Below, piece by piece: positions 17,431-52,333 of a stretch of 64,000 bases of DNA. Every line of letters starts with the position of its first letter. Position 1 is the stretch's first letter. A model generated the notes under the pieces. That model worked only from the letters and a program-made list of their open reading frames with translations. It searched no databases and was not told the DNA's origin. The DNA is taken from contig NZ_BJVJ01000020.1 of NCBI RefSeq assembly GCF_007989085.1, forward strand, positions 1 through 64,000, read 5' to 3'. The DNA comes from Pseudonocardia sulfidoxydans NBRC 16205. GTDB taxonomy: Bacteria; Actinomycetota; Actinomycetes; Mycobacteriales; Pseudonocardiaceae. Position numbers and translations under genes: made by a program.

Positions 17431-17470
17431 GTGAGTGGCGATAGTCGCTATAGCGACTATCGCCACTCAC
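17431..17470. terminator. 40-bp palindrome (family PR-1, copy 1)
   Basis: A perfect palindrome, arm GTGAGTGGCGATAGTCGC plus central TATA. Read on the minus strand, its first bases supply the last Leu codon (TTG) and the TGA stop of the MFS gene at 17467. Confidence 0.8.
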
Positions 17471-19035
17471 AAGGATGCGGAGGTCTCCTCGGTGACCCGG
17501 CCGCCGGGGTGGAGCAGGGCCGCGGCGAGGGAGATCGCCAGGGCGACGGCCATGCCGATCAGCACCGCCCGGGTGGCGACGGCGAAGTCCGCGGCCACGG
17601 CCGCCTCGATCTGGGTGCGCAGCCGCTCGGGGACGTTCGCGAGCGCCGAGGAGTCGCCCCCGCCCGACGACGCCAGCGACGCCGCCTCCGACGGCGGCAC
17701 CCCGAACGCGGCGAGGCTCGTCTGCATGCGGGAGGCGAACACGTTGCCCAGCACCGTGCCGAGGACGGCGAGGCCGAGCGCGGAGCCGTAGTTGCGGACG
17801 GTCTGGGTGATGCCGGTGACCTCGCCGTAGGAGGCGTCGATGGCCCGGTTGGTGGCGTCGGTGCTGGCCGGGCCGAGCAGCAGCCCGATCCCGGCGCCCG
17901 CGAGCACGATGCACCACCACTGCGCACCGAGGCTGAGGTCGGTGATCTTCCACGCCCAGCAGAGGAACCCGACCATCGCCACCACACAGCCGACGACAAC
18001 CGACGGTTTCGCGCCCCGCCTGTCGAGGATCCGCCCGCCGATCTGCGCGGCCGGGGCGAAGCCCGCGAAGAACACCAGCAGGTAGAGGCCCGCGCTGCTC
18101 GCGCCGTAGCCCAGCGACACCTGCGAGTAGATGCTCGCGAAGAAGAACACCGGGACGAACGCGATCATGGAGAAGAACAGCACGAGGTTGTCGGACAGGA
18201 ACGCCCGCCCCCGGAAGATCCCGATCGTGATCAGCGGCACCTCGGTGCGCTGCTCCAACCACACGAACACGCCCAGCGCGATCAGTCCGCCGACGATGCA
18301 CAGCCACGTCAGCGGGCTGTCCCAGCCCCAGTTGCGGGCCTGCTCGAACCCCAGCACCGACAGCGCCATGCCGACGGCGATCACCAGTGCGCCGCGCCAG
18401 TCGATCCGCTCCCGCCGCACGGACGGGGCGATGCCGGCGGCGATCGTCAGGACCAGGGCGACGACCGCGACGGGCACGTTGATCCAGAAGATCGCCCGCC
18501 ACGTCCACTGTGTGAGGTAGCCACCCGCGATCGGTCCGATGGCGGTGAGCCCGCCGCTGACGCCGAAGAAGATCGCCAGCGCCTTGCCGCGCTCGCTCAC
18601 CGGGAACGACGACACCACGACGGCGAGCGCCGCCGGGATCATCAGCGCCGCCGAAAGGCCCTGCAGCGCGCGGAAGACGATGATCCACGCCTCGGCGAGC
18701 GGGCCGCTCGGGGTGAGCCCGCACAGCGTCGACGTCACCGCGAACCCGACGATGCCGACGACGACGATGCGGCGGGAGCCGAGGACGTCGGCGAGCCGCC
18801 CGCCGAGGGCGAACCCCGCGGCCAGGGCCAGCAGGTAGCTGTTGACCACCCACGTGACGCCGCTGCTGGTGAGGCCCAGCTCGGACTGGATGTTCGGGGC
18901 GGCGATCGCGACGATCGTCTGGTCGATGAACGTCATCGCGACGGCGAACATCATCGCCGTGAGCGCGAGCCACTTCGACCGGGCCGCGAGCTTCCCCGAG
19001 CCCACCGACCCGCCTGCGACCGACTGCTCCGCCAT
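17467..19035 (-). CDS. DHA2-family (14-helix) MFS multidrug exporter
   Basis: The 522-residue membrane protein has the drug:proton antiporter-2 pattern. TM1 holds DQTIVAIAAPNIQ. Motif A-like GGRLADVLGSRR lies between helices 2 and 3, and the helix 5 motif C-like stretch GGLTAIGPIAGGYL is present. About 14 hydrophobic helices can be counted. Substrates are unknown. ATG 19035 is preceded by GGAGAG. The stop codon is part of palindrome PR-1 copy 1. It appears to be a single-gene unit; the nearest upstream gene, trpS, ends in a hairpin. Confidence 0.88.
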   Translation of the reverse strand: MAEQSVAGGSVGSGKLAARSKWLALTAMMFAVAMTFIDQTIVAIAAPNIQSELGLTSSGVTWVVNSYLLALAAGFALGGRLADVLGSRRIVVVGIVGFAVTSTLCGLTPSGPLAEAWIIVFRALQGLSAALMIPAALAVVVSSFPVSERGKALAIFFGVSGGLTAIGPIAGGYLTQWTWRAIFWINVPVAVVALVLTIAAGIAPSVRRERIDWRGALVIAVGMALSVLGFEQARNWGWDSPLTWLCIVGGLIALGVFVWLEQRTEVPLITIGIFRGRAFLSDNLVLFFSMIAFVPVFFFASIYSQVSLGYGASSAGLYLLVFFAGFAPAAQIGGRILDRRGAKPSVVVGCVVAMVGFLCWAWKITDLSLGAQWWCIVLAGAGIGLLLGPASTDATNRAIDASYGEVTGITQTVRNYGSALGLAVLGTVLGNVFASRMQTSLAAFGVPPSEAASLASSGGGDSSALANVPERLRTQIEAAVAADFAVATRAVLIGMAVALAISLAAALLHPGGRVTEETSASL

Positions 19036-19109
19036 GCCGCTCTCCGATCGTCACCGATGACGCGAGGTGTGTCACCGGAGATGTCGCTCGGACGAGCCAG
19101 GACGTGACG

Positions 19110-19167
19110 CCGCGCGCAACCTCACGGTCGTCCGGAATCGCCTGGACAGCAGTGAGGTTGCGCGCGG
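19110..19167 (-). terminator. 58-bp hairpin (family PR-3, copy 1) after trpS
   Basis: Arms CCGCGCGCAACCTCAC and GTGAGGTTGCGCGCGG are a perfect 16-bp stem; the 26-nt loop contains a further GTCC/GGAC pair. It starts 5 bp downstream of the trpS stop. Related copies lie at 37253-37304 and 37316-37365. Confidence 0.7.
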
Positions 19168-19172
19168 TGGGC

Positions 19173-26308: not shown

Positions 26309-26373
26309 CCGCCGAGTTCGACGTGAGACTGGATCCGACCATGATCAAACCAGTCAGGCGTCGAACTCGGCGG
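26309..26373. terminator. 65-bp palindrome (family PR-2, copy 2)
   Basis: Arms CCGCCGAGTTCGAC / GTCGAACTCGGCGG with inner GACTGG/CCAGTC. It separates rsmI from the convergent DUF559 gene and encodes that protein's last residues (AEFDA) and its stop. Confidence 0.75.
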
Positions 26374-27340: not shown

Positions 27341-27405
27341 TCGCCGAGTTCGACACGAGCCTGGTCCGATCATGATCGAAACAAGTCTCGTGTCGAACTC
27401 GGCGG
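27341..27405. terminator. 65-bp palindrome (family PR-2, copy 3)
   Basis: Arms (T)CGCCGAGTTCGAC / GTCGAACTCGGCGG, inner arms ACGAG/CTCGT, centre GATCATGATC. It lies 34 bp downstream of the antiporter gene stop and upstream of the DUF559 gene, on the same transcript direction. Confidence 0.75.
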
Positions 27406-27439
27406 GAGGCTGTCCCGCAAGGGCTCCGCCGGCGGTGGG

Positions 27440-31448: not shown

Positions 31449-33242
31449 ATGAGCTCCCGCGTGCTGACCGCCGTTGCGTGGCCCTATGCCAACGGCCCGC
31501 GGCACATCGGCCACGTCTCCGGTTTCGGTGTGCCCTCCGACGTCTTCTCCCGCTACCGGCGGATGGTCGGCGACCAGGTGCTCATGGTGTCCGGCACCGA
31601 CGAGCACGGGACCCCGATCCAGGTGCAGGCCGACGCCGAGGGGCTCACCCCGCGTCAGCTCGCCGACAAGTACAACGAGGTCATCACCCGGGACCTGCAG
31701 GGCCTCGGGCTGTCGTACGACCTCTTCACGCGGACGACGACGTCGAACCACTACGAGGTCGTGCAGAACCTGTTCCTGGCGCTGCACAAGAACGGCTACG
31801 TCGTGTCGAAGACGGCGATGGGCGCGATCAGCCCGTCGACGGGCCGCACGCTGCCCGACCGCTACGTCGAGGGCACCTGCCCCATCTGCGGCTACGACGG
31901 CGCCCGCGGCGACCAGTGCGACAACTGCGGCAACCAGCTCGACCCGGCCGACCTGATCAACCCGCGGTCGAAGATCAACGGCGAGGTCCCGCAGTTCGTC
32001 GAGACCGAGCATTTCTTCCTCGACCTGCCGGCGTTCGCCGAGTCGCTGGGCTCGTGGCTGTCGACCCGCACCGACTGGCGGCCCAACGTCCTCAAGTTCT
32101 CGGCCAACCTCGTCGAGGACCTCAAGCCGCGCGCGATCACCCGCGACCTCGACTGGGGCGTCCCGATCCCGCTCGACGGCTGGCGCGACCTGCCGATGAA
32201 GCGCCTCTACGTCTGGTTCGACGCCGTCATCGGCTACCTGTCGGCGTCGGTCGAGTGGGCCCGGCGCGGGCCCGACGCGGACGCCTGGAAGCAGTGGTGG
32301 ACCGACCCCTCGGCCGAGGGCTACTACTTCATGGGCAAGGACAACATCGTCTTCCACTCCGTGATCTGGCCGGCGCTGCTGCTGGGCCAGAACGGTGCGG
32401 GCGACCGCGGTGGCGAGCCCGGCGCGTTCGGGACGTTGAACCTGCCGAGCGAGATCGTGTCGTCGGAGTACCTGACGATGTCCGGCTCCAAGTTCTCGAC
32501 GAGCCGCGGCCGGGTGATCTACGTCGGCGACTTCCTGCGCGAGTTCGGCCCCGACGCGCTGCGCTACTTCATCGCCGTCGCGGGCCCGGAGAACCAGGAC
32601 ACCGACTTCACCTGGGACGAGTTCGTCCGCCGCACCAACTTCGAGCTGGCCAACGAGTGGGGCAACCTCGTCAACCGCTCGATCTCGATGGCCCACAAGA
32701 ACGTCGGCGCCATCCCGAAGCCGCTGGCCCCGGAGGCGGCCGACGCCGAGCTGCTCGCCGTCTCCCGGGCCGGGTTCGACACCGTCGGCGGGCTGCTCGC
32801 GCGCAACCGGTTCAAGCAGGCCGCGGGGGAGGCGATGCGCGTCGTCACCGCGGCGAACCGGTACCTGTCCGACCAGGAGCCGTGGAAGCGCAAGGACGAC
32901 CCGGAGCGCCGGGACACGATCCTGCACACCGCGCTGCAGGTCGTGCAGGACGCCAACACGCTGCTGACGCCGTTCCTGCCCCACGCCGCGCAGCAGGTCC
33001 ACGAGGCCCTCGGCGGCACCGGGGTGTGGGCGGCGCAGCCGGAGATCCGCGACGTCGACGACCTGGGCGACGGCCCGGCCTACAAGGTCCTGACCGGCGA
33101 CTACGAGACGCAGTCCGCGCGCTGGGAGTCGACGCCGATCGAGGCCGGCCGGCCGCTGGCCAAGCCGACGCCGATCTTCGCGAAGCTCGACCCGGGGCTG
33201 GGCGAGGACGGGCCGTCGTGGGCCCCGATCGAGCGCCTGTGA
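31449..33242 (+). CDS. metG: Methionyl-tRNA synthetase
   Basis: The 597-residue class I enzyme has HIGH at 19-22 ([12 protein letters not shown]), a zinc knuckle with C144, C147, C157 and C160, [15 protein letters not shown] and the KMSKS equivalent KFSTS (348-352), as in many actinobacterial MetRS. It lacks the C-terminal dimerisation domain seen in E. coli. A -10 box 6 nt before the ATG leaves no leader for a riboswitch. The last codon CTG and the TGA stop belong to palindrome PR-1 copy 2. Confidence 0.96.
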
Positions 33243-33278
33243 GTGCCAATAGTCGCTATGGCGACTATTGCCACTCAC
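33239..33278. terminator. 40-bp palindrome (family PR-1, copy 2)
   Basis: Arms GTGAGTGCCAATAGTCGC / GCGACTATTGCCACTCAC. Relative to the other copies two stem positions differ: one change (AAT/ATT) is compensated on both arms. It starts at the last base of the metG Leu codon and includes its TGA. Confidence 0.8.
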
Positions 33279-33285
33279 GAGCCGC

Positions 33286-34170
33286 GTGAGCGGCCCGTAC
33301 GGACGGCGGCCCCGGCCCGAGCCGCCGGAGCCGTTGCCGGCGCCGACCGTCGACGCCCACACCCATCTCGACGCGTGCGGCTGCGTCACGGCGTCAGACG
33401 TCGCTGCGGCCCTTGATCGGGCAGCGGCCGTCGGGGTCACGCGGGTCGTCACGATCGCCGACGACCTCGACGCCGCACGCTGGGCCGTCGCCGCTGCGAA
33501 CTCGGACTCCCGGGTGGCGGCGGCGGTCGCGTTGCACCCGACGCGCACGGCCGCCGTCTCCGAGGACGACTTCGCCGAGATCGAGCGCCTCGCCGCCGAC
33601 CCGCGCGTCGTCGCCGTGGGGGAGACGGGCCTCGACTTCTACTGGGACCACTCGCCGCCCGACGCGCAGGAGACCTGGTTCCGACGCCACGTCGACCTGG
33701 CCAAACGACTCGGCAAGCCGTTGATGATCCACGACCGCGACGCGCACGCCGACGTCCTGCGCGTCCTGCGTTCGGAAGGGGCGCCCGAGACCGTGGTGTT
33801 CCACTGCTTCTCCGGCGACGCCGCGATGGCGCGCGAGTGCACCGACGCGGGATACGTGCTGTCGTTCGCCGGGCCGGTGACGTTCAAGAACTCGCACGAC
33901 CTCCGTGAGGCCGCCGCGCTCGTGCCCGAGGACCAGCTCCTCGTCGAGACCGACGCCCCGTTCCTGACCCCGCACCCGCATCGCGGTCGCGCGAACGAGC
34001 CGTACTGCCTGCCGTGGACGGTGCGTGGGTTGGCCGCCGTTCGAGGTGTGTCCGACGAGCGGCTCGCGAGCGTCGCCGGGCGAAACGCCGAACGGGTCTT
34101 CCGGCTCGCCGAACTGCCGCCGATCGTGCCGGACCTCGCTCTCGGCGCGGACGGCCGTCGCTCGGCGTAG
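33286..34170 (+). CDS. tatD: TatD-family metal-dependent deoxyribonuclease
   Basis: The 294-residue TIM-barrel hydrolase shows TVDAHTHLD near the start (metal His pair), VVAVGETGLDFYWD (metal Glu), MIHDRDAH, VFHCFSGD and LVETDAPFLTP. It degrades DNA from 3' ends in other bacteria. GTG 33286 lies just beyond palindrome PR-1 copy 2, which occupies almost all of the metG-tatD gap. The order metG-tatD-rpfB-ksgA is conserved with Rv1007c-Rv1010, although metG orientation differs. Confidence 0.93.
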   Translation: MSGPYGRRPRPEPPEPLPAPTVDAHTHLDACGCVTASDVAAALDRAAAVGVTRVVTIADDLDAARWAVAAANSDSRVAAAVALHPTRTAAVSEDDFAEIERLAADPRVVAVGETGLDFYWDHSPPDAQETWFRRHVDLAKRLGKPLMIHDRDAHADVLRVLRSEGAPETVVFHCFSGDAAMARECTDAGYVLSFAGPVTFKNSHDLREAAALVPEDQLLVETDAPFLTPHPHRGRANEPYCLPWTVRGLAAVRGVSDERLASVAGRNAERVFRLAELPPIVPDLALGADGRRSA

Positions 34171-39770: not shown

Positions 39771-39776
39771 TAGTGT
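39771..39776 (+). promoter_or_regulatory. -10 box TAGTGT, leaderless start of ispE
   Basis: TAGTGT is separated by exactly 6 nt from GTG 39783, so here the first transcribed base is the G of a GTG start. Confidence 0.65.
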
Positions 39777-39782
39777 TGTCAG

Positions 39783-40754
39783 GTGCTCGCCGCCGTCCCC
39801 GTCCCGGTCACCGTGCGTGTCCCCGGGAAGATCAACCTGCATCTCGCCGTCGGCGACGTGCGCGACGACGGCTACCACGAGCTGGTCACCGTGTTCCACG
39901 CCGTGAGCCTGTTCGACGAGGTCACGGTCGCGACGTCGGATGTCCCGGGCGTCGAGGTCACCGGTGACACCGCGGCCGAGGTCCCCACCGACGCCACCAA
40001 CCTCGCGTGGAAGGCCGTCGAGCTGCTGGGCCGGCATGCGGACCACGACACCGACGTGAAGGTCGTGCTGCGCAAGGGCATCCCTGTCGCGGGCGGTATG
40101 GCGGGCGGCAGCGCCGACGCCGCCGGCACCCTCGTCGCACTCGCCGGGCTGTGGAAGCTGGACCTCACCCGCGAGGAGCTGGCCGTCATGGCCGCCGAGC
40201 TGGGCAGCGACGTCACGTTCGCGCTGCACGGCGGGACGGCCGTCGGCACCGGGCGGGGGGAGCGCATCGTGCCGGTCCTGTCGCGGCACCCGCAGCACTG
40301 GGTGATCGCGCTCGCACGGCAGGGCCTGTCCACGCCGACGGTGTTCGCCGAGCTGGACCGGCTGCGCGCCGCGTCGGAGACCGAGTCCCCGGTCCGCGCC
40401 GTCGAGCCCGTCCTGGAAGCGCTCGCCGGGGGCGACCCCCGCCAGCTCGCGTTGTCGCTGGGCAACGACCTGCAGGCCGCCGCCGTGAGCCTCGCCCCCG
40501 ATCTGCGCCGCACCTTGCGCGCCGGCGTCTCCGCGGGCGCGCTGGCGGGGCTGGTGTCCGGGTCGGGGCCCACCTGCGCGTTCCTGTGCGACAGCGCCGA
40601 CTCCGCGGTGGAGGTCGCCGCCGAGCTGGCCGGTGCGGGGGTGTGCCGGACCGTCCGTGTCGCCCACGGGCCCGTCCCCGGGGCCCGGATCGTCGACGAG
40701 AACGAGCCGCCGTCGGGCCCCCCGACCGGCTCCTGGCCGAAAGTGCGTGCCTGA
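39783..40754 (+). CDS. ispE: 4-diphosphocytidyl-2-C-methyl-D-erythritol kinase
   Basis: The 323-residue GHMP kinase of the MEP isoprenoid pathway has [12 protein letters not shown] at its N-terminus, the ATP loop [16 protein letters not shown] and the C-terminal [13 protein letters not shown]. Its stop overlaps the ABC-F start (TGATG), so both are on one message. In M. tuberculosis ispE (Rv1011) follows ksgA directly; here a PadR-pump pair is inserted between them. Confidence 0.94.
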
Positions 40755-42547
40755 TGCCCCCGGTTCGGCAGAACCTGGTCAACCTCGAGTCCGTCACCGC
40801 CCACGTCCCCGGCGACGCCTCGCGCGTCCTGCTGAACTCCGTGTCGCTGGGCGTGGAGCGCGGCGAGCGGATCGGCGTCGTCGGCCTCAACGGCGGCGGC
40901 AAGACCACGCTGCTCGACATCCTCGCCGGGCGCCGGCAGCCGCAGTCGGGGCGGATCAGCCGCGTCGGCGGGCTCAAGCTGTCCCACCTGGCGCAGGGCG
41001 ATCCGCTGCCCGCGGGCGCGAGGATTCGCGACGTCGTGCTCGCCGACTACGGCGCCGAGCACGAGTGGGCGTCCGACCCGCGGGTGCGCGACGTCCTCAC
41101 CGGGCTCGGCGTCACCGACCTCGACCGCACCGTCGACGGGCTGTCCGGCGGCGAGAAGCGCCGCGTCGGGCTCGCGGCCACGCTCATCGGCGAGCCCGAC
41201 CTCGTCGTCCTCGACGAGCCGACCAACCATCTCGACGTCGAGGGCGTCGGCTGGCTGGCCCGGCACCTCATCGGGCGGCGCTGCGGCGTCGTCGTCGTGA
41301 CGCACGACCGCTGGTTCCTCGACGCCGTGTGCACCCGGACGTGGGAGGTCGCGAACGGCAACGTCGAGAGCTACCTCGGCGGCTACGCGGACTGGGTCTA
41401 CGCCCGCGCCGAACGCACCCGGCAGGCCGACGCGGCCGAGGCCCGGCGGCAGAACATGGCGCGCAAGGAACTGGCGTGGCTGCGCCGTGGCGCCCCGGCG
41501 CGGACGTCGAAGCCGCGGTTCCGCATCGAGGCCGCCGAGGCCCTGATCGCCGACGTGCCGCCGCCGCGTAACTCCGTCGAACTGCTCGGCTTCGCGACGA
41601 ACCGCCTGGGCCGCACCGTCCTCGAGCTGGAGGACGCCACCGTGCGGATCGGCGACCGCACGCTGCTCGACGACGTCACCTGGCGGCTCGGGCCGGGCGA
41701 TCGGATCGGGATCGTCGGCGTCAACGGCTCCGGCAAGACGACGCTGCTGCGCTCCCTCACCGGTGAACGCCCGCTCGACGGCGGCAAGCGGGTCCAGGGC
41801 ACCACCGTCCAGCTGGCGGAGCTCACCCAGGAGATCGTCGACCTGCCCCGCGAGATGCGGGTGCTCGAGGCGACGGAGGACGTCGCCAAGTTCGTGCGGC
41901 TCGGGAAGCTGGAGCTGTCGGCGTCGTCGGTGCTGGAACGGCTCGGTTTCCCCGCCGCGCGGCAGTGGACGCCCGTCGGGCAGCTGTCCGGTGGTGAGCG
42001 GCGCCGGTTGCAGCTGACGCGGCTGCTCATGGCCGAGCCCAACGTCCTGCTGCTCGACGAACCCACCAACGACCTCGACGTCGACACCCTGTCCAACCTC
42101 GAGGACCTGCTCGACGGCTGGCCGGGCACGCTGATCGTCGTCAGTCACGACCGCTACCTGGTGGAGCGGGTGTGCGACACCGTCGTCGCCCTGTTCGGCG
42201 ACGGCCGCATCACGCACCTGCCCGGCGGGATCGAGGAGTACCTGCAGCGTCGGGCTGCGTCGGGCGACGCCGTCGCCGCGATCGCGATGACCGGCTCCGG
42301 TGCGGCGAAGGCCGCTCCGGCGGTGTCCGCCGCCGACCAGCGCGCCGCCCGCAAGGAGGCCTCGCGGCTGGAGCGGAAGATGGAGTCGTTGTCGGCCAAG
42401 GAGTCCCAGCTCCACGACGCCCTCGCGGCCGCGGCCACCGACCCCGCGAAACTGATGGAGCTCGGCGCGCAGCTCAAGGCCGTCACCGCGGAACGTGAGG
42501 CCGTCGAGCTGGAGTGGCTGGCCGCCGCGGAGCTCGCCGAGTCGTAG
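40754..42547 (+). CDS. ABC-F family ATPase
   Basis: The 597-residue protein has two nucleotide-binding domains and no membrane helices. Walker A motifs are GLNGGGKTT and GVNGSGKTT; signatures are LSGGEKRRV and LSGGERRRL; Walker B motifs are VVLDEPTNHLD and LLDEPTNDLD. A linker rich in charged residues joins the halves, and the C-terminal 70 residues form a coiled coil (RKEASRLERKMESLSAKESQ), as in Uup-type proteins. ABC-F proteins act on ribosomes or protect them from antibiotics. It overlaps ispE by 1 bp. Confidence 0.92.
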   Translation: MPPVRQNLVNLESVTAHVPGDASRVLLNSVSLGVERGERIGVVGLNGGGKTTLLDILAGRRQPQSGRISRVGGLKLSHLAQGDPLPAGARIRDVVLADYGAEHEWASDPRVRDVLTGLGVTDLDRTVDGLSGGEKRRVGLAATLIGEPDLVVLDEPTNHLDVEGVGWLARHLIGRRCGVVVVTHDRWFLDAVCTRTWEVANGNVESYLGGYADWVYARAERTRQADAAEARRQNMARKELAWLRRGAPARTSKPRFRIEAAEALIADVPPPRNSVELLGFATNRLGRTVLELEDATVRIGDRTLLDDVTWRLGPGDRIGIVGVNGSGKTTLLRSLTGERPLDGGKRVQGTTVQLAELTQEIVDLPREMRVLEATEDVAKFVRLGKLELSASSVLERLGFPAARQWTPVGQLSGGERRRLQLTRLLMAEPNVLLLDEPTNDLDVDTLSNLEDLLDGWPGTLIVVSHDRYLVERVCDTVVALFGDGRITHLPGGIEEYLQRRAASGDAVAAIAMTGSGAAKAAPAVSAADQRAARKEASRLERKMESLSAKESQLHDALAAAATDPAKLMELGAQLKAVTAEREAVELEWLAAAELAES

Positions 42548-42551
42548 CCCT

Positions 42552-42591
42552 GTGAGTGGCGATAGTCGCTATAGCGACTATCGCCGCTCAC
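42552..42591. terminator. 40-bp palindrome (family PR-1, copy 3)
   Basis: GTGAGTGGCGATAGTCGC arm, one mismatch in the second arm (CGCCGCTCAC). It begins 4 bp after the ABC-F TAG stop. Pairing extends to CTGTGAG/CTCACAG (42550-42593). Confidence 0.8.
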
Positions 42592-42604
42592 AGGCTGGTG
42601 TGGT

Positions 42605-42680
42605 GTCACCGTGACGTCAGCGGTCGGCTGAAGTGGTGTCAGCGTCGTGTCAGCGCGGCGTCAGCGGTGGGGATCAGAGT
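42605..42680 (+). promoter_or_regulatory. 11-bp phased direct repeats and promoter of drrAB-like operon
   Basis: GTCAGCG occurs at 42616, 42638, 42649 and 42660, and GTCACCG at 42605. All lie on one 11-bp register, with the 42627 slot degenerate. Repeats on the same helical face suit OmpR/PhoB-type regulators. A weak -10, CAGAGT (42675-42680), lies 7 nt before ATG 42688. Confidence 0.6.
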
Positions 42681-42687
42681 CCTCCCC

Positions 42688-43665: not shown

Positions 43666-44498
43666 CCACCACTGCTGTCGCACCCGGAACGACGCCCCGC
43701 CCGCCCATGCCGATACCCGACATCGAACGCAGCAGACACGGGCCGTCCACGATCCGCCACGGCCTCACGCTCGCGTGGCGTGGCGTCGTCAAGACGATCC
43801 ACTCGCCCGAAGCCCTGATCGACGTGACGCTGCAGCCGGTCATCTTCCTGCTGCTGTTCGTCTACGTCTTCGGCGGCGCGATCGCCGGCAACACCACCGA
43901 GTACCTGCAGTTCGCGCTGCCCGGCGTGCTGGTGCAGACCGTGGTGTTCGCGTCCGCGGGCACCGGCGTCGGGCTCGCGGAGGACCTGCACACCGGCATC
44001 TTCGACCGGTTCCGCAGCCTCCCGATCTCCCGGTCGGCACCGCTCGTCGGCGCGATCATGGCCGACCTGGTGCGCTACCTGACCTCCGGCGTGATCATGC
44101 TGGTTCTCGGCACGATCCTCGGCTTCCGGATGCACACCAACCCGCTCAACGTGATCGCGGCGATGGGCCTGGTCATGGTGTTCGCCTTCGCCCTGTGCTG
44201 GGTGTTCACCGCGCTCGCGATGCTCGTCCGCCAGCCCCGCTCCGTGCAGGGCATCGGCGCGATGATCATGCTGCCGCTGACCTTCGGCAGCAACGTGTTC
44301 GTCCCGTCGGACTCGATGCCCGGCTGGCTGCAGGCGTTCGTGAACGTCAACCCGGTCTCGAAGGTCGCCGACGCCGTCCGCGGCCTGCTCACCGGCGGTC
44401 CCGTCGCGGCCGCGGCCACGACGGCGCTGATCGCCGCCGCCGTCGTCGTCGCCGTGTTCGCGCCGATCGCGGTGACGCTCTACCGCAAGCGCGCCTGA
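43662..44498 (+). CDS. DrrB-like ABC-2 permease
   Basis: The 278-residue ABC-2 membrane protein has six hydrophobic helices. The family signature lies in SVQGIGAMIMLPLTFGSNVFVPSDSMPGWLQ, and FVNVNPVSKVADAVR follows it. It pairs with the upstream ATPase; the start overlaps its stop. Its 3' end overlaps the convergent SARP-type gene by 19 bp. Confidence 0.92.
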   Translation: MTTTAVAPGTTPRPPMPIPDIERSRHGPSTIRHGLTLAWRGVVKTIHSPEALIDVTLQPVIFLLLFVYVFGGAIAGNTTEYLQFALPGVLVQTVVFASAGTGVGLAEDLHTGIFDRFRSLPISRSAPLVGAIMADLVRYLTSGVIMLVLGTILGFRMHTNPLNVIAAMGLVMVFAFALCWVFTALAMLVRQPRSVQGIGAMIMLPLTFGSNVFVPSDSMPGWLQAFVNVNPVSKVADAVRGLLTGGPVAAAATTALIAAAVVVAVFAPIAVTLYRKRA

Positions 44499-47400
44499 TC
44501 CGTCCTCGACGACACGGTCCGCACGAGGTCCCGGACGGCTGCGAGGCCGTCGGGACGGGGGAGGCCCCGGCCCCGCCGCAGCGCATCGTCCGCCGCGGCG
44601 GGGCCGAGGGCGTCCCGCACCCCGTCGACGACCGCGACGACGTCGGGGTTGCCGTGGTCGAGCGTGCCGCGCTGGGCCAGCGCGACCCCGAGCATCAGCC
44701 CCGCGGCGTCGGCGTCGCCACGGGTCAGTGCGAACTGCGCGCCGTACTCGACGACGAGCGCCGCGACCGGGCCGTCGTGGCTCGCGATCGCCTCGTCGAG
44801 GGCGCGATCGAGGGAGGCCGCGGCCGCGTCGACGTCCCCGGCCGCGACCTCGACCCGGTACCGCACGATCTCGACGAGGGCCCGCCGCTGCTCGCGGGCC
44901 AGCCCGTGCCCGGCGTCGCGTTCGGCCGCCGCGAGGTGCCGGCGCGCCGCGGTGAGGTTGCCCGCCACGCGTTCGATGTCGGCGAGCGCCGCCCGCGCCA
45001 TCGTCTGCACGCCGAAGGGGCCCGACGCGATGTCGGCGGCGCTCTCGGCGAGCTCCCGGGCCCGGACGGGATCGCCGCGCCGCAGGCACAGCCCGGCCTG
45101 CTGCAGCATGAACTGCGGCAGGTCGTCGTCGTTGCCCAGCTCGGTGGCCAGTGCGAGGGCCTCGTCGTAGGCCGCGGCGGCGGCGTCGAGGTTGCCGGCC
45201 AGGTCCTCCAGCTCGCCCAGCGTCCCGATCGTCATGCCCAGCCCGAAGCGGTCCCCGGTCGTCGTGAACAGCTCGTGCGCGGTCCGGACGAGGCGTCGCT
45301 GCAGCTCGATGTCGCCGTCGTTCTCCGCGAGCTGCGCCCGCACCTGGGTGGCGAACGCGCGAACCCACGGATCGTCCGACGTCACGGACACCTCCTCGAG
45401 CAACGTCGGGTCACCGGTGAACGCCCGGCCCAGCGGCGCGACGAGCTGCAGCGCGGGATGGCGCGGTTCGGGTGTGGCCGCGGCGGCGGTGACGGCCTCG
45501 TCGAGGCGGGCGACGGCCGCGTCGACGTCACCGCGCGCGACGAAGGTCAGCAGCAGGTAGGCCAGTGTGCGGGCGGCGACGGCCGGTAGATCCGGAGGGG
45601 GCAGCGCCACGGCCTCCGCGACCCAGGTGATCGACTCCTCGTAGCGGCCGCGGATGAACCACGACCATCCCATGGCGGCGACGATCCGGTGCGCGGTCGC
45701 GCCGTCGCCGCGGTTCACGGCCCTGCGCAGCGCCACGGCGATGTTGTCGTTCTCGGCGCGCAGCGGCACGAGCCAGCGCAGCTGGTCGGCGCCGCGCAGG
45801 TGCGGTTCGGACGTCTCGGCCAGGTCGACGACCCAGGCGGCGTGCGCGGCGACGACCGCGTCGGCCTCGCCGGCCTCGGCGAGCCGCTCGGCGGCGTAGT
45901 CGCGGATCGTCTCCAGGAGCCGGTACCGCGTCGGGTCCGGGCCACCGGACGGCACCGCCACGACCAGTGACTTGTCGACGAGTGCTGCCAGCAGGTCGAA
46001 CGCGTCGGCCGGGTCGGGGCCGCCCGCGCCGGCGCAGACCCGTTCGACGGTCGCCGCCGTCGCGCCGCCCGCGAAGACCCCCATGCGGCGCAACAGGATC
46101 CGCTCGGGCTCGACCAGCAGGTCCCAGCTCCAGTCGACGACGGCGCGCAACGTCTGGTGCCGCGGCAACGCGGTGCGGGCGCCGGAGGTGAGTAGCCGGA
46201 AGCGGTCGTCGAGACGCGCGGCGATCTCGGTGAGCGACAACGTCCGCAGCCGGGCCGCGGCGAGCTCCAGGGGCAGCGGCTGACCGTCGAGGCGCGCGCA
46301 GATCTCGGCGACGACGGGTTGGGTCGTCGTGTCCACGACGAACCCGGGGGCGACGGCGGCGGCGCGGTCGGCGAACAGTCGGACCGCGGCGGCGGTGTCG
46401 AGCGGCTCGACGGGGTGCAGCACCTCACCGGGCACGGCCAGCGGCTCACGGCTGGTCGCCAGGACCCGCAGCCGCGGCGCCGCCTCGAGCATCCGCTGGG
46501 TGAGCACCGCGACGTCGTCGACGAGGTGTTCGCAGTTGTCCAGCACCAGCACGACGTCGCGGTCCCCGAGTGCGGTCAACAGCCGGCCGGTGAGGTCGGG
46601 CGGACCGTCGTCAGGGTTGCGCATCATCAGCTCCGGCTCGCCGACGGCCGCCAGCACCGTGCCGGGGAGCTGCTCGGCACCGGTGAGCGGCGCGAGCTCG
46701 GCGACCGGCGCCTCGGCGCGGCCGTCGACGATCTCCCTGGCCAGCCGGGTCTTCCCCGCTCCGCCCGGACCGAGCAGCGTCACGAGCCGGGCGGTGCTCA
46801 GCAGGCTGCGCACCCGGCCGACGTCGGCGTCGCGACCCACGAAGCTGGTGAGTGCGACGGACCTGTGCACCGGCTCCTTGCGGGCAGGGGCCGGCGCGGG
46901 CGTCCCGCGCAGCACGTCGAGCCGGGCTCTCGCCAGCTCCGGGCCGGGGTCGACGCCCAGCTCGCCCGCCAGCCGCTCCCGCGTCCGGTCGAGCACGGCG
47001 AGCGCGTCGGCCTGCCGGCCCGTCGCGTGCAGCCCGCGGGCCAGCACTACCGCGGCGCTCTCCCGCAACGGCTGCGCCGCAAGGAGATCGCTGACCGCAT
47101 CGAGACCTGCACCGGGGTCGCCCGCGACAAGGCCCAGTGCGGCGCGCGTCTCGACGGCCACCGCCCGCTGCTCCTCCAGCCGTGCCGCGACGGCGTCGGC
47201 GAACGGGAGCCGGCGCACGTCGGCCAGCGCCGGTCCGCGCCAGAGCCCGAGCGCCTCCTCCAACGCCGACGCCGCGACCGCCGCGTCGGTGCCCGCCCTC
47301 GCGGTCGCGACGAGGTGGCCGAACCGCCCGGCGTCGACGGCATCGGGGGCGAGGTCGAGCAGGTAGCCGCCCTGGACGGTCACCACCAGCCGCGCGCCGA

Positions 47401-47641
47401 GCGCCCGCCGCAGCCGCGACACCAGCGACTGCAACGCGTTGGCCACCGCGTCCGGCGGCTCCTCGCCCCACAGGTCGTCGACCAGCGCCTCGGTGGTGAC
47501 GGGGCGACCGGCGTCGAGCGCGAGGCGGGCCAGCAGCCCGCGCAGCCGCAGGCCGGGTGGCGCGGCGTCGGTGTCGGCGGGCGCGACGGTGCCGTTGGCC
47601 GACGGCCACGCCGCCACGCTCCCCAGCACCCCGATCCGCAC
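44480..47641 (-). CDS. SARP/AfsR-type regulator with ATPase and TPR domains
   Basis: The 1053-residue protein has an OmpR-like winged helix (1-95, RLRGLLARLALDAGRPV and DALQSL-type wing), a bacterial transcriptional activation domain (about 100-245), an NB-ARC ATPase (about 265-520, Walker A LLGPGGAGKTR, Walker B VLVLDNCEHL) and a long TPR-like helical tail. Such proteins activate secondary-metabolite or stress genes by signal-dependent assembly. It converges with and overlaps the drrAB-like operon by 19 bp, so strong transcription of either could interfere with the other. Confidence 0.9.
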   Translation of the reverse strand: MRIGVLGSVAAWPSANGTVAPADTDAAPPGLRLRGLLARLALDAGRPVTTEALVDDLWGEEPPDAVANALQSLVSRLRRALGARLVVTVQGGYLLDLAPDAVDAGRFGHLVATARAGTDAAVAASALEEALGLWRGPALADVRRLPFADAVAARLEEQRAVAVETRAALGLVAGDPGAGLDAVSDLLAAQPLRESAAVVLARGLHATGRQADALAVLDRTRERLAGELGVDPGPELARARLDVLRGTPAPAPARKEPVHRSVALTSFVGRDADVGRVRSLLSTARLVTLLGPGGAGKTRLAREIVDGRAEAPVAELAPLTGAEQLPGTVLAAVGEPELMMRNPDDGPPDLTGRLLTALGDRDVVLVLDNCEHLVDDVAVLTQRMLEAAPRLRVLATSREPLAVPGEVLHPVEPLDTAAAVRLFADRAAAVAPGFVVDTTTQPVVAEICARLDGQPLPLELAAARLRTLSLTEIAARLDDRFRLLTSGARTALPRHQTLRAVVDWSWDLLVEPERILLRRMGVFAGGATAATVERVCAGAGGPDPADAFDLLAALVDKSLVVAVPSGGPDPTRYRLLETIRDYAAERLAEAGEADAVVAAHAAWVVDLAETSEPHLRGADQLRWLVPLRAENDNIAVALRRAVNRGDGATAHRIVAAMGWSWFIRGRYEESITWVAEAVALPPPDLPAVAARTLAYLLLTFVARGDVDAAVARLDEAVTAAAATPEPRHPALQLVAPLGRAFTGDPTLLEEVSVTSDDPWVRAFATQVRAQLAENDGDIELQRRLVRTAHELFTTTGDRFGLGMTIGTLGELEDLAGNLDAAAAAYDEALALATELGNDDDLPQFMLQQAGLCLRRGDPVRARELAESAADIASGPFGVQTMARAALADIERVAGNLTAARRHLAAAERDAGHGLAREQRRALVEIVRYRVEVAAGDVDAAAASLDRALDEAIASHDGPVAALVVEYGAQFALTRGDADAAGLMLGVALAQRGTLDHGNPDVVAVVDGVRDALGPAAADDALRRGRGLPRPDGLAAVRDLVRTVSSRTDQARLR

Positions 47642-47733
47642 GCCGTCAGTCTGCCGTGCGCGATCGCGTGGCTGCAGCGAATACCCCGGTGACCGGGCGG
47701 TTCAGGCCCTCGTGGGCGATTCCGACGTCCCTG

Positions 47734-47773
47734 GTGAGTGGCGATAGTCGCTATAGCGACTATCGCCACTCAC
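47734..47773. terminator. 40-bp palindrome (family PR-1, copy 4)
   Basis: A perfect palindrome with arm GTGAGTGGCGATAGTCGC. On the minus strand it supplies the last bases of the final CTG codon and the TGA (47772-47770) of the M20 peptidase gene. It stands 92 bp upstream of the SARP gene start. Confidence 0.8.
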
Positions 47774-49116
47774 AGGCTGTTCAGGAAGTAGGCCTCGGCC
47801 AGGACGCCGCGGCCGAACATGGCGAGGTCGAGGCTCTCGTCGATGCCGTGCCAGCGGCTGGCCGGGTCGCCGACGCCCGTCACCAGCACCGCGGCGCCCG
47901 GGAACGTCCGGGCGAACTCCGCGATGAACGGGATCGAGCCGCCGATGCCCATCTCGACGACGGAGTTGCCGTACGCGCGCGAGTACGCGGAGCGGGCGGC
48001 GTCGTAGGCGGAGCCGGTGCTCTGCAGCGCGAACGGCTCCGCGACACCGCTGCCCGGCTCCACGGAGACGTGCGCGCCCCACGGCACGTGCGCGCGCAGG
48101 TGCTCCGCGAGGGCCCGCTGCGCGGCGAGCGCGTCCTCACCCGGGGCGAGCCGCATGCTCACCATCGCCCGCGCACGCGGCAACAGGACGTTCGACGCGT
48201 CCGCGACCCGGGGCGCGTCGATGCCCAGGACGGCGATCGCGGGCTTCAGGTTCGTCCGGTCCGGGATGGTCCCCGACCCCAGTAGCTCGACGCCGTCGAG
48301 CAGCCCGGCGGTCGAACGGAACGTCTCCTCGTCCATGTCGGGGGCCTCGGACTCGGTGCGCACCAGCCCGGGGACGGCGACCTCGCCCTTGTCGTCGTGC
48401 AGCGAGGCCAGGGCCTTGCAGAGCGCGGTGAGGGCGTCGCCGACCGGGCCGCCGAAGACGCCGGAGTGCACCGGCTGCTCCAGCATCGACACCTCGACGA
48501 CGACGTCCACCAGCCCGCGCAGCGTCGTCGTCAGGGCGGGGACGTCGGTCGCGGGGTTCGCGGCGTCGGCGATGACGATCACGTCGGCGGCGAGCAGGTC
48601 GCGGTGCTCGGCCAGCAGCGCCGTCAACGTCGGCGAGCCCGACTCCTCCTCGCCCTCCACGAACAGCGTGACGCCGACGGGCGGCGTCCCGTCGAACGCG
48701 CGCAGCGCCGCCAGGTGGGTCATGACGCCGGCCTTGTCGTCGGCGGCGCCGCGCCCGTACAGGCGGCCGTCGCGCTCGGTCGGCTCGAAGGGCGGGCTCG
48801 TCCAGTGCTCGTCGCCACCGGTGGGCTGCACGTCGTGGTGGGCGTAGAGCAGGACGGTCGGCGTCCCGGCCGGGCCGGGGAAGCGGGCGACGACGGCCGG
48901 TGCGCCACCCTCGGCCTGCAGGATCTGGACGTCGGCCGCACCGGCGTCGCGCGCCAGCGAGGCGACGGCGTCGGCGCTGCGACGGGTGTCGTCGGCACGC
49001 GTGGGATCAGCCCAGATGCTGGGAATCCGCACGAGGCGTTCGAGGTCGGCGCGCGCCGGAGCGAGCTGCGCGTCGACGGCGGCGGCGAGGGCGTCGTTCG
49101 AGAGCGGGTCGGCCAC
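47770..49116 (-). CDS. M20-family dipeptidase/peptidase
   Basis: The 448-residue zinc hydrolase has metal motifs VLLYAHHDVQP, GRGAADDKAG, FVEGEEESGSP and a C-terminal GIGGSIPFI. A dimerisation (lid) domain is inserted in the middle (about 190-330). Substrates are probably small peptides. GTG 49116 is 8 nt after a TAGCAT box; upstream in-frame codons read into the divergent neighbour. Its stop codon is provided by PR-1 copy 4. Confidence 0.9.
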   Translation of the reverse strand: MADPLSNDALAAAVDAQLAPARADLERLVRIPSIWADPTRADDTRRSADAVASLARDAGAADVQILQAEGGAPAVVARFPGPAGTPTVLLYAHHDVQPTGGDEHWTSPPFEPTERDGRLYGRGAADDKAGVMTHLAALRAFDGTPPVGVTLFVEGEEESGSPTLTALLAEHRDLLAADVIVIADAANPATDVPALTTTLRGLVDVVVEVSMLEQPVHSGVFGGPVGDALTALCKALASLHDDKGEVAVPGLVRTESEAPDMDEETFRSTAGLLDGVELLGSGTIPDRTNLKPAIAVLGIDAPRVADASNVLLPRARAMVSMRLAPGEDALAAQRALAEHLRAHVPWGAHVSVEPGSGVAEPFALQSTGSAYDAARSAYSRAYGNSVVEMGIGGSIPFIAEFARTFPGAAVLVTGVGDPASRWHGIDESLDLAMFGRGVLAEAYFLNSL

Positions 49117-49124
49117 GGAGCCGG

Positions 49125-49130
49125 ATGCTA
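49125..49130 (-). promoter_or_regulatory. -10 box TAGCAT of the M20 peptidase gene
   Basis: Minus-strand TAGCAT lies 8 nt before GTG 49116. Confidence 0.5.
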
Positions 49131-49141
49131 CGCGCAGGTCG

Positions 49142-49147
49142 TAGTCT
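49142..49147 (+). promoter_or_regulatory. -10 box TAGTCT of the acyl-AMP ligase gene
   Basis: TAGTCT lies 7 nt before ATG 49155. The two divergent boxes are 11 bp apart. Confidence 0.55.
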
Positions 49148-49154
49148 CGGCGGC

Positions 49155-50810
49155 ATGTCGCGGTTCCTCCAGATGCTGACGGACAGCGCGGCCCGGTCCG
49201 CCAAGGCAATGATCACCGGGGAGCCGAAGGAGCCCGTCCGCACACCGTGGCGTGACGTGCACGAGAAGGCGCGCAGGCTGGCCGGGGCGCTGGTCGCCGA
49301 ACCCGTCCTCGAACGGGGCGTCGCCGTCGCGGTGCTCGCCGCCGAACCGGCCCAGATCGCCCCCGCCGCCCAGGCCGTGTGGCTCGCAGGCGGCAGCGTC
49401 ACGATGCTGCACCAGCCCACCGCCCGCACCGACCTGGCCGTCTGGGCCGAGGACACCGTCACGGTGCTCGGCATGATCGGCGCGAAGCTCGTCCTGCTCG
49501 GGGCGCCGTTCGACGCGCTCGCCCCGGTGCTGGCCGAGCGCGGCATCGCGTACCGGCTCCTGTCGGAGCTCTCCGACGGCGGGGAGCCGATCACCGTCGA
49601 CGTGGCCGTCGCCGACGAGGACGACACCGCGCTGCTGCAGCTCACCAGCGGCTCGACCGCCGAGCCGAAGGCCGTGCGGATCACCCACCGCAACCTGTTC
49701 GCCAACATCACCGGCATGGTCACCGCGGCCCAGCTCGACGCCGAGCGCGACGTGATGGTGTCGTGGCTGCCGCTGTTCCACGACATGGGCATGGTCGGGT
49801 TCATGACCGTCCCCATGGTCACCGGGCTGGAACTGGTGACGGTCACGCCCGTCGACTTCCTGTCCCGGCCGCTGCTGTGGGCCGAGCTGATCTCGAAGTA
49901 CCGCGGCACCGTCACCGCCGCCCCCAACTTCGCCTACGCGGTGCTGGCCCGCCAGCTCGCCCGCGCCGAGGAGGGCTCACTCGACCTGTCGTCGATGCGG
50001 TTCGCCCTCAACGGGGCCGAGCCCATCGACCCCGACGCCGTCATCGCCCTCACCGACGCCGGGGCGCGCTTCGGCCTCGGCGCCGACTCCGTCGTGTGCG
50101 CCTACGGCATGGCCGAGACCGCGCTCGGGGTGTCGTTCGCGCCGTGCGACACCGGTATGGTCATCGACCACGTCGACGCCGAATGGCTCGAGGAGAAGCG
50201 CCACGCCCGGCCCGCGCTCTACGGGCCCACCCGCCGCTTCCCCCGCCTCGGGCCGCCGCTGCCCGGTATCGAGGTGCGCGTCGTGGGCGACGACGGGACG
50301 GTCCTGCCGGAGCGGGGCGTCGGCATCCTGCAGCTGCGCGGCGAGTCCGTGACGCCCGGGTACCTGACCGTCGACGGGCCGCGCCCCGCCCAGGACGCCG
50401 ACGGCTGGCTCGACACCGGCGACGAGGGCTACCTCGCCGGGGTGGAGGTCGTTGTCTGCGGGCGGCGCAAGGACGTCATCATCATGGGCGGGCGCAACAT
50501 CTACCCGACCGACATCGAACGCGCCGCCGCGCTGGCCGCCGACGTGCGGGCGGGCAACGTCGTCGCCGTTCGGCTCGAGGCCGGTGCCGGCCGCCACCGC
50601 GAGTCGTTCCTGGTGGCCGTCGAGTCGCGCAAGGCAGGCGACCCGGCCGCGGAGGACGTCATCCGCAAGGACGTCACGTCGAAGGTCGCCGCGGCCTGCG
50701 GGGTACGTCCGGCCGATGTCGTCGTCCTCGCGCCGGGGACGTTGCCCAAGACGCCGTCGGGCAAACTGCGCCGCTCCGCGACGGGCGACCTGATCGCGGC
50801 GCGGGCCTGA
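49155..50810 (+). CDS. Acyl-adenylate-forming enzyme (Pks16-like)
   Basis: The 551-residue ANL enzyme has the phosphate loop LQLTSGSTAEPKAV (about 160-173), SWLPLFHDMGMVGF, CAYGMAETALG, GWLDTGDEGYL, GRRKDVIIMGGRNIYP and the catalytic Lys segment PKTPSGKLRRS. FHDMGMVG and GAEPI are characteristic of fatty-acyl AMP ligases. Its place before pth matches Rv1013 (annotated pks16, really an acyl ligase). It activates a fatty acid; the acceptor is not identifiable. Confidence 0.88.
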   Translation: MSRFLQMLTDSAARSAKAMITGEPKEPVRTPWRDVHEKARRLAGALVAEPVLERGVAVAVLAAEPAQIAPAAQAVWLAGGSVTMLHQPTARTDLAVWAEDTVTVLGMIGAKLVLLGAPFDALAPVLAERGIAYRLLSELSDGGEPITVDVAVADEDDTALLQLTSGSTAEPKAVRITHRNLFANITGMVTAAQLDAERDVMVSWLPLFHDMGMVGFMTVPMVTGLELVTVTPVDFLSRPLLWAELISKYRGTVTAAPNFAYAVLARQLARAEEGSLDLSSMRFALNGAEPIDPDAVIALTDAGARFGLGADSVVCAYGMAETALGVSFAPCDTGMVIDHVDAEWLEEKRHARPALYGPTRRFPRLGPPLPGIEVRVVGDDGTVLPERGVGILQLRGESVTPGYLTVDGPRPAQDADGWLDTGDEGYLAGVEVVVCGRRKDVIIMGGRNIYPTDIERAAALAADVRAGNVVAVRLEAGAGRHRESFLVAVESRKAGDPAAEDVIRKDVTSKVAAACGVRPADVVVLAPGTLPKTPSGKLRRSATGDLIAARA

Positions 50811-50846
50811 CCCCCGGGAACGTATTCCTGCAGAAGGACGGGACGC

Positions 50847-51428
50847 TCAGCCCGACAGCGCGTGGAACCTGTTCTGCGTCGGCTCCAGGCCGTCGGCCAG
50901 CAGGGCCTCCGCCGCGTCGGCAGCCAGGTCGACCGCGAACTCCAGCTCCTTGTTCTCGACGGACGAGAACCGCTTGAGCACGAAGTCCGCCGGGTCCTGG
51001 CGGCCGGGCGGGCGCCCGATGCCGAAGCGGACCCGCAGGTAGTCGCGGGTGCCGATCGACTGGCTGATCGAACGCAGCCCGTTGTGCCCGCCCTCGCCGC
51101 CACCCTGCTTGAGCCGGATGACCCCGAAGCCGAGATCCAGATCGTCGTGCACGACGACCAGCTCCGTCGCGGGGACGGAGAAGTAGCGCAGCAGCCCGGC
51201 GACCGGCCCGCCCGAGACGTTCATGTACGTCCGGGGCTTCGCGAGCACGACCTTGCGGCCGGCGAGCCGACCCTCCAGCACGTCGGCGTTGCTCTTGTGC
51301 TTCGAGAACCGGCCGCCGCCGGCCCGCGCCGCCAACAGCTCGACGACGCGGAAACCGACGTTGTGCCGGGTCTCGGCGTACTCGGGGCCGGGGTTGCCGA
51401 GCCCGACCACCATGGCGGGGCCCGGCAC
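50847..51428 (-). CDS. pth: Peptidyl-tRNA hydrolase
   Basis: The 193-residue enzyme rescues stalled peptidyl-t[23 protein letters not shown] contains the catalytic His, and [25 protein letters not shown] and [15 protein letters not shown] are intact. GTG 51428 is 5 bp after the rplY stop; ATG 51413 would remove five residues. The rplY-pth pair is a conserved operon. It converges with the acyl ligase gene with 36 bp between stops. Confidence 0.95.
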
Positions 51429-51433
51429 GGCCG

Positions 51434-52087
51434 TCAGCCCTCGGAGGACTCGGAGCCGGCCTCGGCGGCCGGGGCCTCCGCCTCGGGGGCGTCCTCGACC
51501 ACGCCGGCACCCTCGGTGTCGACCTCGGACTCGAGGTCGGCCTCGGTGGGCGCCGCGACGACGTTGACGACGAGGGCCTCGGGGTCGGTGCGCAGCTCGA
51601 CACCCTCGGGAAGCGTGAGGCCACCGGCGAGGAACTGGGTGCCGATCGCGGCCTCCTCGACCGAGACCTCGATCGACTCGGGGATGCTGAGGACGTCGGC
51701 CTCGACCTCGATGGTGTTGAGCTCCTGGGTGACCAGGCTACCCGGCTGCGCGTCGCCGGTGACGACGACCTGCACCTCGACGACGACCTTCTCGCCACGC
51801 TTGATGACGAGCAGGTCGACGTGCTCGATGTACGGGCGGATGGGGTGGACCACGACGGTCTTGGTCAGGGCGAGCTGCGGGCTGCCGCTGATGTTGAGCT
51901 CGAGCACGGCGTTGCGGCCCTGGTCGCGCACGACGCGGGCGAACTCCAGCGACGGCAGCGCGAGGTGCTGCGGGTCGGTGCCGTGCCCGTAGAGGACAGC
52001 GGGGATCTTGCCGGCGCGGCGGGTGCGACGGGCGGCGCCCTTGCCGAACTCGGTGCGGGTCTCGGCGTCGATGCGGGCCTGGGCCAC
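51434..52087 (-). CDS. rplY: Ribosomal protein bL25 (CTC form)
   Basis: The 217-residue protein has the N-terminal 5S rRNA-binding domain ([24 protein letters not shown]) and the C-terminal beta domain of the CTC type (about 95-185). A Glu/Ala-rich tail follows ([15 protein letters not shown]). GTG start after GAGGAG. It heads the rplY-pth operon. The CTC form is the stress-related long version, normal in actinobacteria. Confidence 0.94.
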
Positions 52088-52293
52088 GGGACTACTCCTC
52101 GATACGAACGCGGTGTGTGTGAGCGCGCGGCGAGGAGGGGCGTGGAACCGGTCGGACCGGTCCAGCGTCGATCACGGCGGGCTCACTGACCGCCCGCCCT
52201 CGCCGCGGAACTGTCGACGAGAGTACGCCGGGTCCGTACGGCCCCGGCCCCGGGGTCGGGCCTGCTGACCGGCAGCGCGCCGCAGCGACCCCT

Positions 52294-52333
52294 GTGAGTG
52301 GCGATAGTCGCTATAGCGACCATCGCCACTCAC
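52294..52333. terminator. 40-bp palindrome (family PR-1, copy 5)
   Basis: Same arm GTGAGTGGCGATAGTCGC with one mismatch (GACC in place of GACT). It lies 19 bp downstream of the stop of the gene at 52353 and about 200 bp upstream of rplY. Pairing extends to CTGTGAG/CTCACAG. Confidence 0.8.

Follow-up and report, generated by a model that had tools for sequence, protein, structure and literature searches.

The first 64,000 nucleotides of contig NZ_BJVJ01000020.1 of Pseudonocardia sulfidoxydans NBRC 16205 (hereafter the window) contain five palindromes of 40 bp, at 17431..17470, 33239..33278, 42552..42591, 47734..47773 and 52294..52333, each near the end of a gene and three of them carrying that gene's stop codon. 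What are these palindromes, why do they sit at stop codons and what keeps their copies alike? We find that the host genome carries hundreds of such palindromes, that their stems covary and that their cores appear to have been rewritten in concert at fixed gene ends. We put at about even the chances of the reading in which the five belong to a single dispersed family of 3'-end hairpins. They had been pointed out in an earlier note, made from the letters of the window; all five are present, and the window holds ten matches to their arm with at most three mismatches, against none in 100 shuffles.

A palindrome family seated at stop codons

Allowing three mismatches, a search for the arm in the host genome (G000, 6,576,285 bases in 209 contigs; the other G-numbers designate genomes compared with it) gave 317 matches in forward and 311 in reverse orientation; the reversed control gave 1 and 0. 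These counts imply that the whole genome carries about 315 palindromes and few single arms, and they confirm that the element is dispersed, as the earlier note had proposed. The stricter pattern GTGAGTG-N18..32-CACTCAC occurs 179 times (3 in the control); the listing covers roughly between a quarter and a third of the 179, and every copy in it measures 40 bp, as does each of the 54 copies in a scan of 845 kb of G000 that admitted lengths of 34 to 46 bp. In the relative Pseudonocardia dioxanivorans CB1190 a strict pattern gives 75 copies. An end-blind scan of 781 kb of G000, which needed no GTGAGTG ends, found 82 palindromes with 18-bp arms, with GTGAG near an edge in 50.

The copies combine an 18-bp stem with a 4-nt loop and have their outer heptamers in common (GTGAGYG…CRCTCAC, position 6 being T or C), while the core is variable yet self-complementary. 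Mismatches affect 10 of 972 stem pairs and 22 of the 108 pairs formed by the central four bases, a concentration that resembles a hairpin loop. Most copies are flanked by CCT at one end and by GA, AA or AGG at the opposite end. No single or separated arm of the host's type was found in an 845-kb sample of the 6.58-Mb genome, which comprises contigs C1-C3, C4:1-120000 and the window and in which some 751 genes were called. In the relative G169, six unpaired-arm matches have the appearance of shortened or decayed palindromes.

Placement was measured against genes called with an in-house codon-usage script rather than a standard gene finder; its starts are rough, and the stops were used. The palindromes are not scattered at random inside genes: in the part of the host genome that was read, 3 of 57 copies lie within called genes, and such copies were dropped before all counts of placement, G.U pairs, covariation and stop distance. 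The association with gene 3' ends claimed in the earlier note is borne out by the 54 intergenic copies, of which 40 lie at most 7 nt from a stop codon (5.4% under random placement in gaps, p = 4e-39) and 49 at most 60 nt (23% under random placement in G000 gaps). Convergent gaps hold 25 of the 54, against 21% at random (p = 3e-5). The register with the gene is also uneven: the stop lies at offset -4, with its TGA inside the palindrome edge, at 21 gene ends, at -14 in four, and two are read through, a 21:4:2 split that departs from equal thirds by frame (p = 3e-6).

Stem covariation and turnover of cores

Covariation was computed after removing duplicates and sequences with fewer than 14 of 20 pairs. 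In the host genome 98.4% of stem cells are paired, compared with 90.3 (sd 0.7)% when partners are shuffled, and cells with a double change number 35 for 9.2 expected (maximum 16 in 500 shuffles). Positions 6, 9, 10 and 13 vary jointly in the two arms; position 10 alone is G-C in 37 copies, A-T in 17 and mismatched in none. The relatives G169 and G269 each have 31 double-change cells, for 10.5 and 11.9 expected (maximum 17 in both), again beyond all 500 shuffles. The form under selection is very probably the folded single strand.

Two observations concern the level, RNA or DNA, at which that strand acts. Among 67 copies from four genomes whose sense could be assigned by a single gene end, 44 have unlike flanks, and these read 5'-CCT..GA/AA-3' in the gene's sense in 32 cases and the opposite way in 12 (p = 0.004), while the remaining 23 copies fit neither form. 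Single-arm mismatches provide a second measure: a function in RNA should leave an excess of G.U over A.C on the gene strand, whereas selection on DNA should leave the two equal by symmetry. On the sense strand the pooled G.U:A.C count is 47:27 (p = 0.027), or 51:30 with G054 added (p = 0.026), the contributions including 5:2 in the host, 12:8 in G169, 6:1 in G269, 12:7 in G058, 4:3 in G054 and 10:5 in 22 copies from named loci. Four of the last come from genomes already counted, and dropping them leaves the counts unchanged; a few of the weakest named-locus matches may be chance, control scans having given 5. The tendency to G.U over A.C is weak. Oriented flanks and this weak excess together favour action at the RNA level, and we regard it as fairly probable that the palindrome acts as RNA. 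An orientation bias of the asymmetric centre GTTCTAAC was also sought, and none was clear (9:4 plus one other in G058, 6:6 in G054).

Orthologous sites were then compared between the host and three relatives, a palindrome being scored as present where the flanks were at least 78% identical and the copy was 40 bp long. The flanks of the mapped sites are 88.6-90.6% identical, and the palindrome is present at 12 of 19 mappable host sites in G169, 11 of 19 in G269 and 5 of 9 in G274; by eye, some of the sites scored as absent hold altered palindromes (42 bp at C3:62728 and 49 bp at C3:151059 in G169, and the site at 17431 in G269). The sites are shared, and each genome has its own cores: among the copies listed, GCGATAGTCGC prevails in G000, GCGATGGTCGC in G169 and several others in G269. 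Between the host and G269, orthologous copies differ at 6.82 of 36 stem positions, as against 6.94 for shuffled sites (P = 0.49), while host copies differ among themselves at 2.98. Two further pairs give like values, 5.00 against 4.74 for the host and G274, and 7.83 against 7.85 for G169 and G269. Since orthologues in the host and G269 are no more alike than random pairs and copies are alike within a genome, the cores carry, on the few sites available, the mark of concerted evolution or else of copies being replaced time and again where they stand. Homogenisation by copying or conversion between sites is, in our judgement, somewhat likelier than parallel selection.

At three sites where the palindrome is absent, the orthologues of C3:36216 and C3:134721 in G269 and the place after the exporter gene of copy 1 in G274, the sequence CCCTGCTC is found instead, possibly as a deletion scar.

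The five copies, their genes and the wider distribution

Copy 1 (17431..17470, 20/20 pairs) holds the TGA of a major facilitator superfamily (MFS) exporter (17467..19035, minus strand, PF07690) that ends in ..SASL*. Copy 2 (33239..33278, 18/20 pairs) holds the TGA of metG, the gene of methionyl-tRNA synthetase (31449..33242, plus strand, PF09334), which ends in ..PIERL*; a TatD-like DNase recognised by Pfam follows in the same direction (33286..34170, plus strand). The compensatory change that the earlier note had seen in copy 2 is real, a paired A.T replacing G.C at position 10; its other irregularities are a C.C at position 8 and one loop mismatch. Copy 3 (42552..42591, 19/20 pairs) begins 4 nt after the stop of an ABC-F-like ATPase with two ABC_tran domains (40754..42547, plus strand), and its sole mismatch is a G.U in the sense of that upstream gene. 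Copy 4 (47734..47773, 20/20 pairs) holds the TGA of an M20 peptidase (47770..49116, minus strand, PF01546). Copy 5 (52294..52333, 19/20 pairs), whose sole mismatch reads as G.U in the direction of the neighbouring minus-strand gene, lies 19 nt from the end of a 157-aa open reading frame without Pfam match (52353..52826, minus strand). As to the statement that each palindrome directly follows a gene, four overlap a stop or lie at most 4 nt from it, and the fifth lies at the 19 nt just given. It had also been claimed that the palindrome edge supplies the last Leu codon and the TGA of the MFS gene, metG and the peptidase gene; the TGA is indeed palindrome bases 2-4, but only the last Leu base lies inside, the other two bases of TTG or CTG deriving from the flank CTT or CCT. 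The five predicted folds range from -33 to -53 kcal/mol (z -6 to -12). An Rfam scan of the window raised only two tRNAs to gathering score and matched the palindromes to no family, and Rfam membership was rejected for the window.

Comparison with relatives bears on how these stops arose. The peptidase ends in ..YFLNSL* in G000 and in ..YFLQTLAE*, followed by CCC or CCCT and the palindrome, in G169 and G274; the palindrome is therefore old at this site, and in the host lineage the end of the gene is some 14 nt shorter, with its stop inside the palindrome. The product of metG ends in IERL* in G000, in IERP* in G169 with the palindrome at the same place, in IEK* in G274 with the palindrome 11 nt downstream, and in IEKSL* in G269, which has no palindrome. 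The MFS gene has the same arrangement in G269, ending in the palindrome, and ends elsewhere in G274, which lacks it. The earlier suggestion that the repeat replaced original gene ends is thus right in that the ends of metG and the peptidase gene were remodelled; what the comparison points to is the edge of a pre-existing palindrome moving into the gene in these lineages, and not necessarily a first insertion.

Other repeats occur in the window. A second inverted-repeat family of about 65 bp (CGCCGAGTTCGAC .. GTCGAACTCGGCG) is found at 9886-9950, 26310-26374 and 27342-27406, its copies being 75-83% alike to the first and likewise near gene ends, and a G+C-rich imperfect repeat array with a spacing of about 180-250 bp lies between genes at 56481-57090.

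Beyond the host, a loose pattern matches at least once in 143 of 249 genomes of the host family, many with single matches as in the control, and at least ten times in 55, two of which (G028 and G057) have similar control counts. Copy number by this pattern ranges from 0 to 457 across the family (maximum in G058) and from 0 to 179 within the genus. The exact 40-bp pattern was found in 36 of 397 genomes of the order, namely 27 of 79 from the host family and 9 of 318 from other families, with cores quite different from those of the host; six of the nine belong to one family, f8 (73, 26, 23, 5, 4 and 4 copies), and three have one copy. Among 197 genomes drawn from the class only G000 matches, with 0 of 180 outside the order. 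Searches of other genomes required GTGAGTG ends, so that end conservation is partly by construction, and length was left free only in the initial pattern scans of G000 and the family; palindromes with different ends occur, GTGCGCG in G270 among them. In the f8 genomes G434, G544 and G586, with 23, 26 and 73 copies, the frame is again 40 bp and the centres differ, one centre of G434 being GAATGTACAGC..GCTATACATTC. The centre GTTCTAAC/GTTAGAAC is widespread in G058 and G054, with 182 oriented matches in G054. An asymmetric subfamily of G054, resembling GTGAGTGATAAGTGTCGTTCTAACGCTCCTTATCACTCAC and flanked by GTC..GACC, was seen at L303, L304, L308, L310, L313, L317, L319, L320 and L326-L328; 7 of these 11 copies have no gene 3' end within 60 nt, as against 2 of 19 symmetric ones.

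The gap 3' of metG was read at 30 loci of the genus, the host's included, from 62 genomes with a match. A strong hairpin (cut-off score 11, set by us) was found at 15: nine are of the 40-bp size class with different cores, two of which (L107 and L108) are identical, and six are of other kinds. In G237, G261 and G262 (L098, L099 and L111) this gap holds longer hairpins of 51-61 bp with pieces in common such as CCACAACG or GTGGCT, perhaps further dispersed families. At the host site C4:13655, G169 has an unrelated palindrome; it is of the type GAACGGCAC..GCAAC..GTTGC..GTGCCGTTC, which occurs in G000 near C3:72405 and C4:59839. Such replacements weakly suggest that the hairpin at the gene end, and not its exact sequence, is what is kept.

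Origin and role of the hairpins

We found no paper on this palindrome family in a literature search whose coverage excluded subscription papers, and we file the palindromes as a new variant of dispersed extragenic palindromes. Repetitive extragenic palindromic sequences (REPs) carry a 5' tetranucleotide foot, GTAG or GGAG, and their inverted doublets are known as REPINs. The palindromes resemble both in forming genome-specific families of hundreds of short extragenic elements near gene 3' ends; unlike a REPIN, each is one near-perfect palindrome rather than two inverted REPs, and unlike REPs they are pinned to the stop codon, with a flank of CCT..GA and no tetranucleotide foot. Conserved outer parts with a diverse interior, as found here, are described for REPINs in PMC8049555.

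The earlier note had thought of a REP-like element moved by an unseen transposase. The habit is REP-like, but mobilisation of the type of REP-associated tyrosine transposases (RAYTs) or IS200 was rejected, the corresponding Y1_Tnp profile (PF01797) being absent from G000. It matches in 50 of 249 genomes, among them not G058, G065, G176, G054 or G169, so that the richest genomes of the draw lack it too; G181, with 128 copies, has two matches, and G269 and G274 were outside that draw. A non-autonomous element of another REP-like kind, or one like a miniature inverted-repeat transposable element (MITE), is less likely than not. An enzyme would recognise the GTGAGTG ends and copy the palindrome either to gene ends or onto copies already there; the hairpin would serve transposition, and the placement would reflect tolerance or targeting of insertions at gene ends. 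That ends and length are common to the copies and the core is free agrees with this, as do arms of 18-20 nt that qualify as the terminal inverted repeats of a MITE, the range of copy numbers, the differences in presence between close relatives, the genome-typical cores of the listed copies and the several subfamilies per genome. One gap is nearly clean (C3:167868, GGTC|AGGG in the host and GGTC|GGG in G169); the others differ by more than the element, and no target duplication was recognised. Tolerance alone would predict a looser placement than the one seen, pinned within 7 nt of stops, and 11-12 of 19 comparable sites are common to relatives. The 845-kb host sample has no single arm of the host's type, the six of G169 look shortened or decayed, and the host's 40-mer found no match at E up to 1 in 72,556 plasmid and 50,697 phage records, a search insensitive to other cores. 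Terminal repeats of a long insertion sequence were set aside for the 845 kb read, of 6.58 Mb, which have no separated arms of the host's type.

Improbable in our view is a site for a chromosomal DNA-binding protein that would contact the two heptamers 26 bp apart, convergent ends being harmless places and cores following the protein. The heptamer pair at fixed spacing does occur far above control in the family and in a few genomes of other families, and convergent sites are enriched; yet a duplex site needs neither a core that pairs through double changes nor tolerance in the loop, the flanks are oriented with the gene, and in the loop-expanded copies (42 and 49 bp) the arms are intact but their spacing is altered. 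Less probable still is the absence of any function, with template switching during replication copying mutations from arm to arm and the palindromes persisting because selection does not see them. According to PMC8794818, hairpins can be maintained by template switching, and paired changes exceed single ones between the host and G269 (both sides changed at 30 pair positions, one side at 15), though not between the host and G169 (18 and 19). Such correction works within a copy: it does not by itself explain the same core in unlinked copies, and the likeness of copies within the host disfavours it as the sole cause. It also leaves the pinning to stop codons unexplained.

DNA uptake sequences that form terminators are found in Neisseria and Haemophilus, where many single copies occur, also inside genes. 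The palindromes share with them a short common sequence arranged as inverted pairs in hairpins, which PMC2267715 describes for terminators, and differ in that their arms are paired at fixed spacing; an uptake sequence was rejected on the nearly equal forward and reverse arm counts and the lack of a single arm of the host's type in the 845 kb. With intrinsic terminators the palindromes have in common a strong hairpin after the stop, convergent enrichment and compensatory changes, the last also reported for Bacillus cereus terminators (PMC5381666). They depart from them in their shared sequence and length across hundreds of copies, in the overlap with the stop, in concerted evolution and in having no U-tract: the 3' flank after the stem is GACC, AGGG or GAGG in 43 of the 67 single-sense copies. 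The term terminator-like used in the earlier note thus fits a G+C-rich hairpin after a stop, but not a canonical terminator, and a search for terminator-like sites with a U-tract in 33000-52500 of the window returned none.

We favour instead a role of the hairpin in transcripts, and 3'-end formation or protection is a somewhat better prospect than another RNA role. The hairpin would define or protect the mRNA 3' end, either as a U-less terminator (factor-assisted or I-shaped) or as a block to 3'-to-5' exonucleases following Rho-dependent termination, and in convergent pairs one hairpin could serve both genes. The report on the very GC-rich Streptomyces clavuligerus (PMC8269248) gives 353 of 535 highly structured transcript ends as lacking a U-rich tract, and its authors consider I-shaped terminators or Rho-dependent ends. 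A copying or gene-conversion-like process may replace the copies already present by the version current in the genome, in which case sites would be kept and sequences turn over; the likeness of copies could stem from conversion, from targeted copying or from parallel selection by a co-evolving factor.

Several observations weigh against this account, which is built on DNA sequence. Besides the missing U-tract, the terminating ribosome would lie over a hairpin that overlaps the stop; with this overlap, protection of the shortest possible 3' untranslated region fits better than termination under a trailing ribosome. Given the number of genes in the sample, palindromes can stand at no more than a small fraction of gene ends, so the element is not the general terminator. 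Covariation stays within the shuffles in G274 (7 double-change cells, maximum 7, from 5 sequences) and G058 (23, maximum 23), and only 85% of G058 stem cells pair. The G.U excess is significant in no single genome, runs the other way in G274 (2:3) and G181 (0:1), has no counts in G270 (0:0) and falls to 38:22 (p = 0.052) for better-paired copies, such restrictions giving p of 0.05-0.13. Orthologues in the host and G169 keep some memory of their site (4.42 against 5.39, P = 0.001), the second, asymmetric subfamily of G054 lies mostly away from gene ends, and half of the metG loci (15 of 30) have no strong hairpin.

Taken together, the earlier note is partly supported, and fixed length, species-typical cores, concerted evolution and wide distribution lie beyond what it claimed. 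More tentatively, and as a conjecture we would not bet on, the palindromes may form a clade-wide RNA 3'-end system of hundreds of stop-seated 40-nt hairpins, alike in ends and length throughout the family and in a few other genera of the order, whose cores are rewritten genome-wide, at fixed sites, by copying or conversion machinery other than a RAYT; if so, each species would carry its own hairpin dialect. A length of 40 bp is far below that usually thought to support homologous gene conversion, and the family raises the question of what homogenises such copies at fixed sites. It would stand as an example from nature of very short, unlinked DNA elements evolving in concert in bacteria without the known REP transposase. 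By supplying the stop codon, these repeats remodel protein C-termini, and their hundreds of natural variants offer material for testing transcript 3'-end formation in high-GC actinomycetes.

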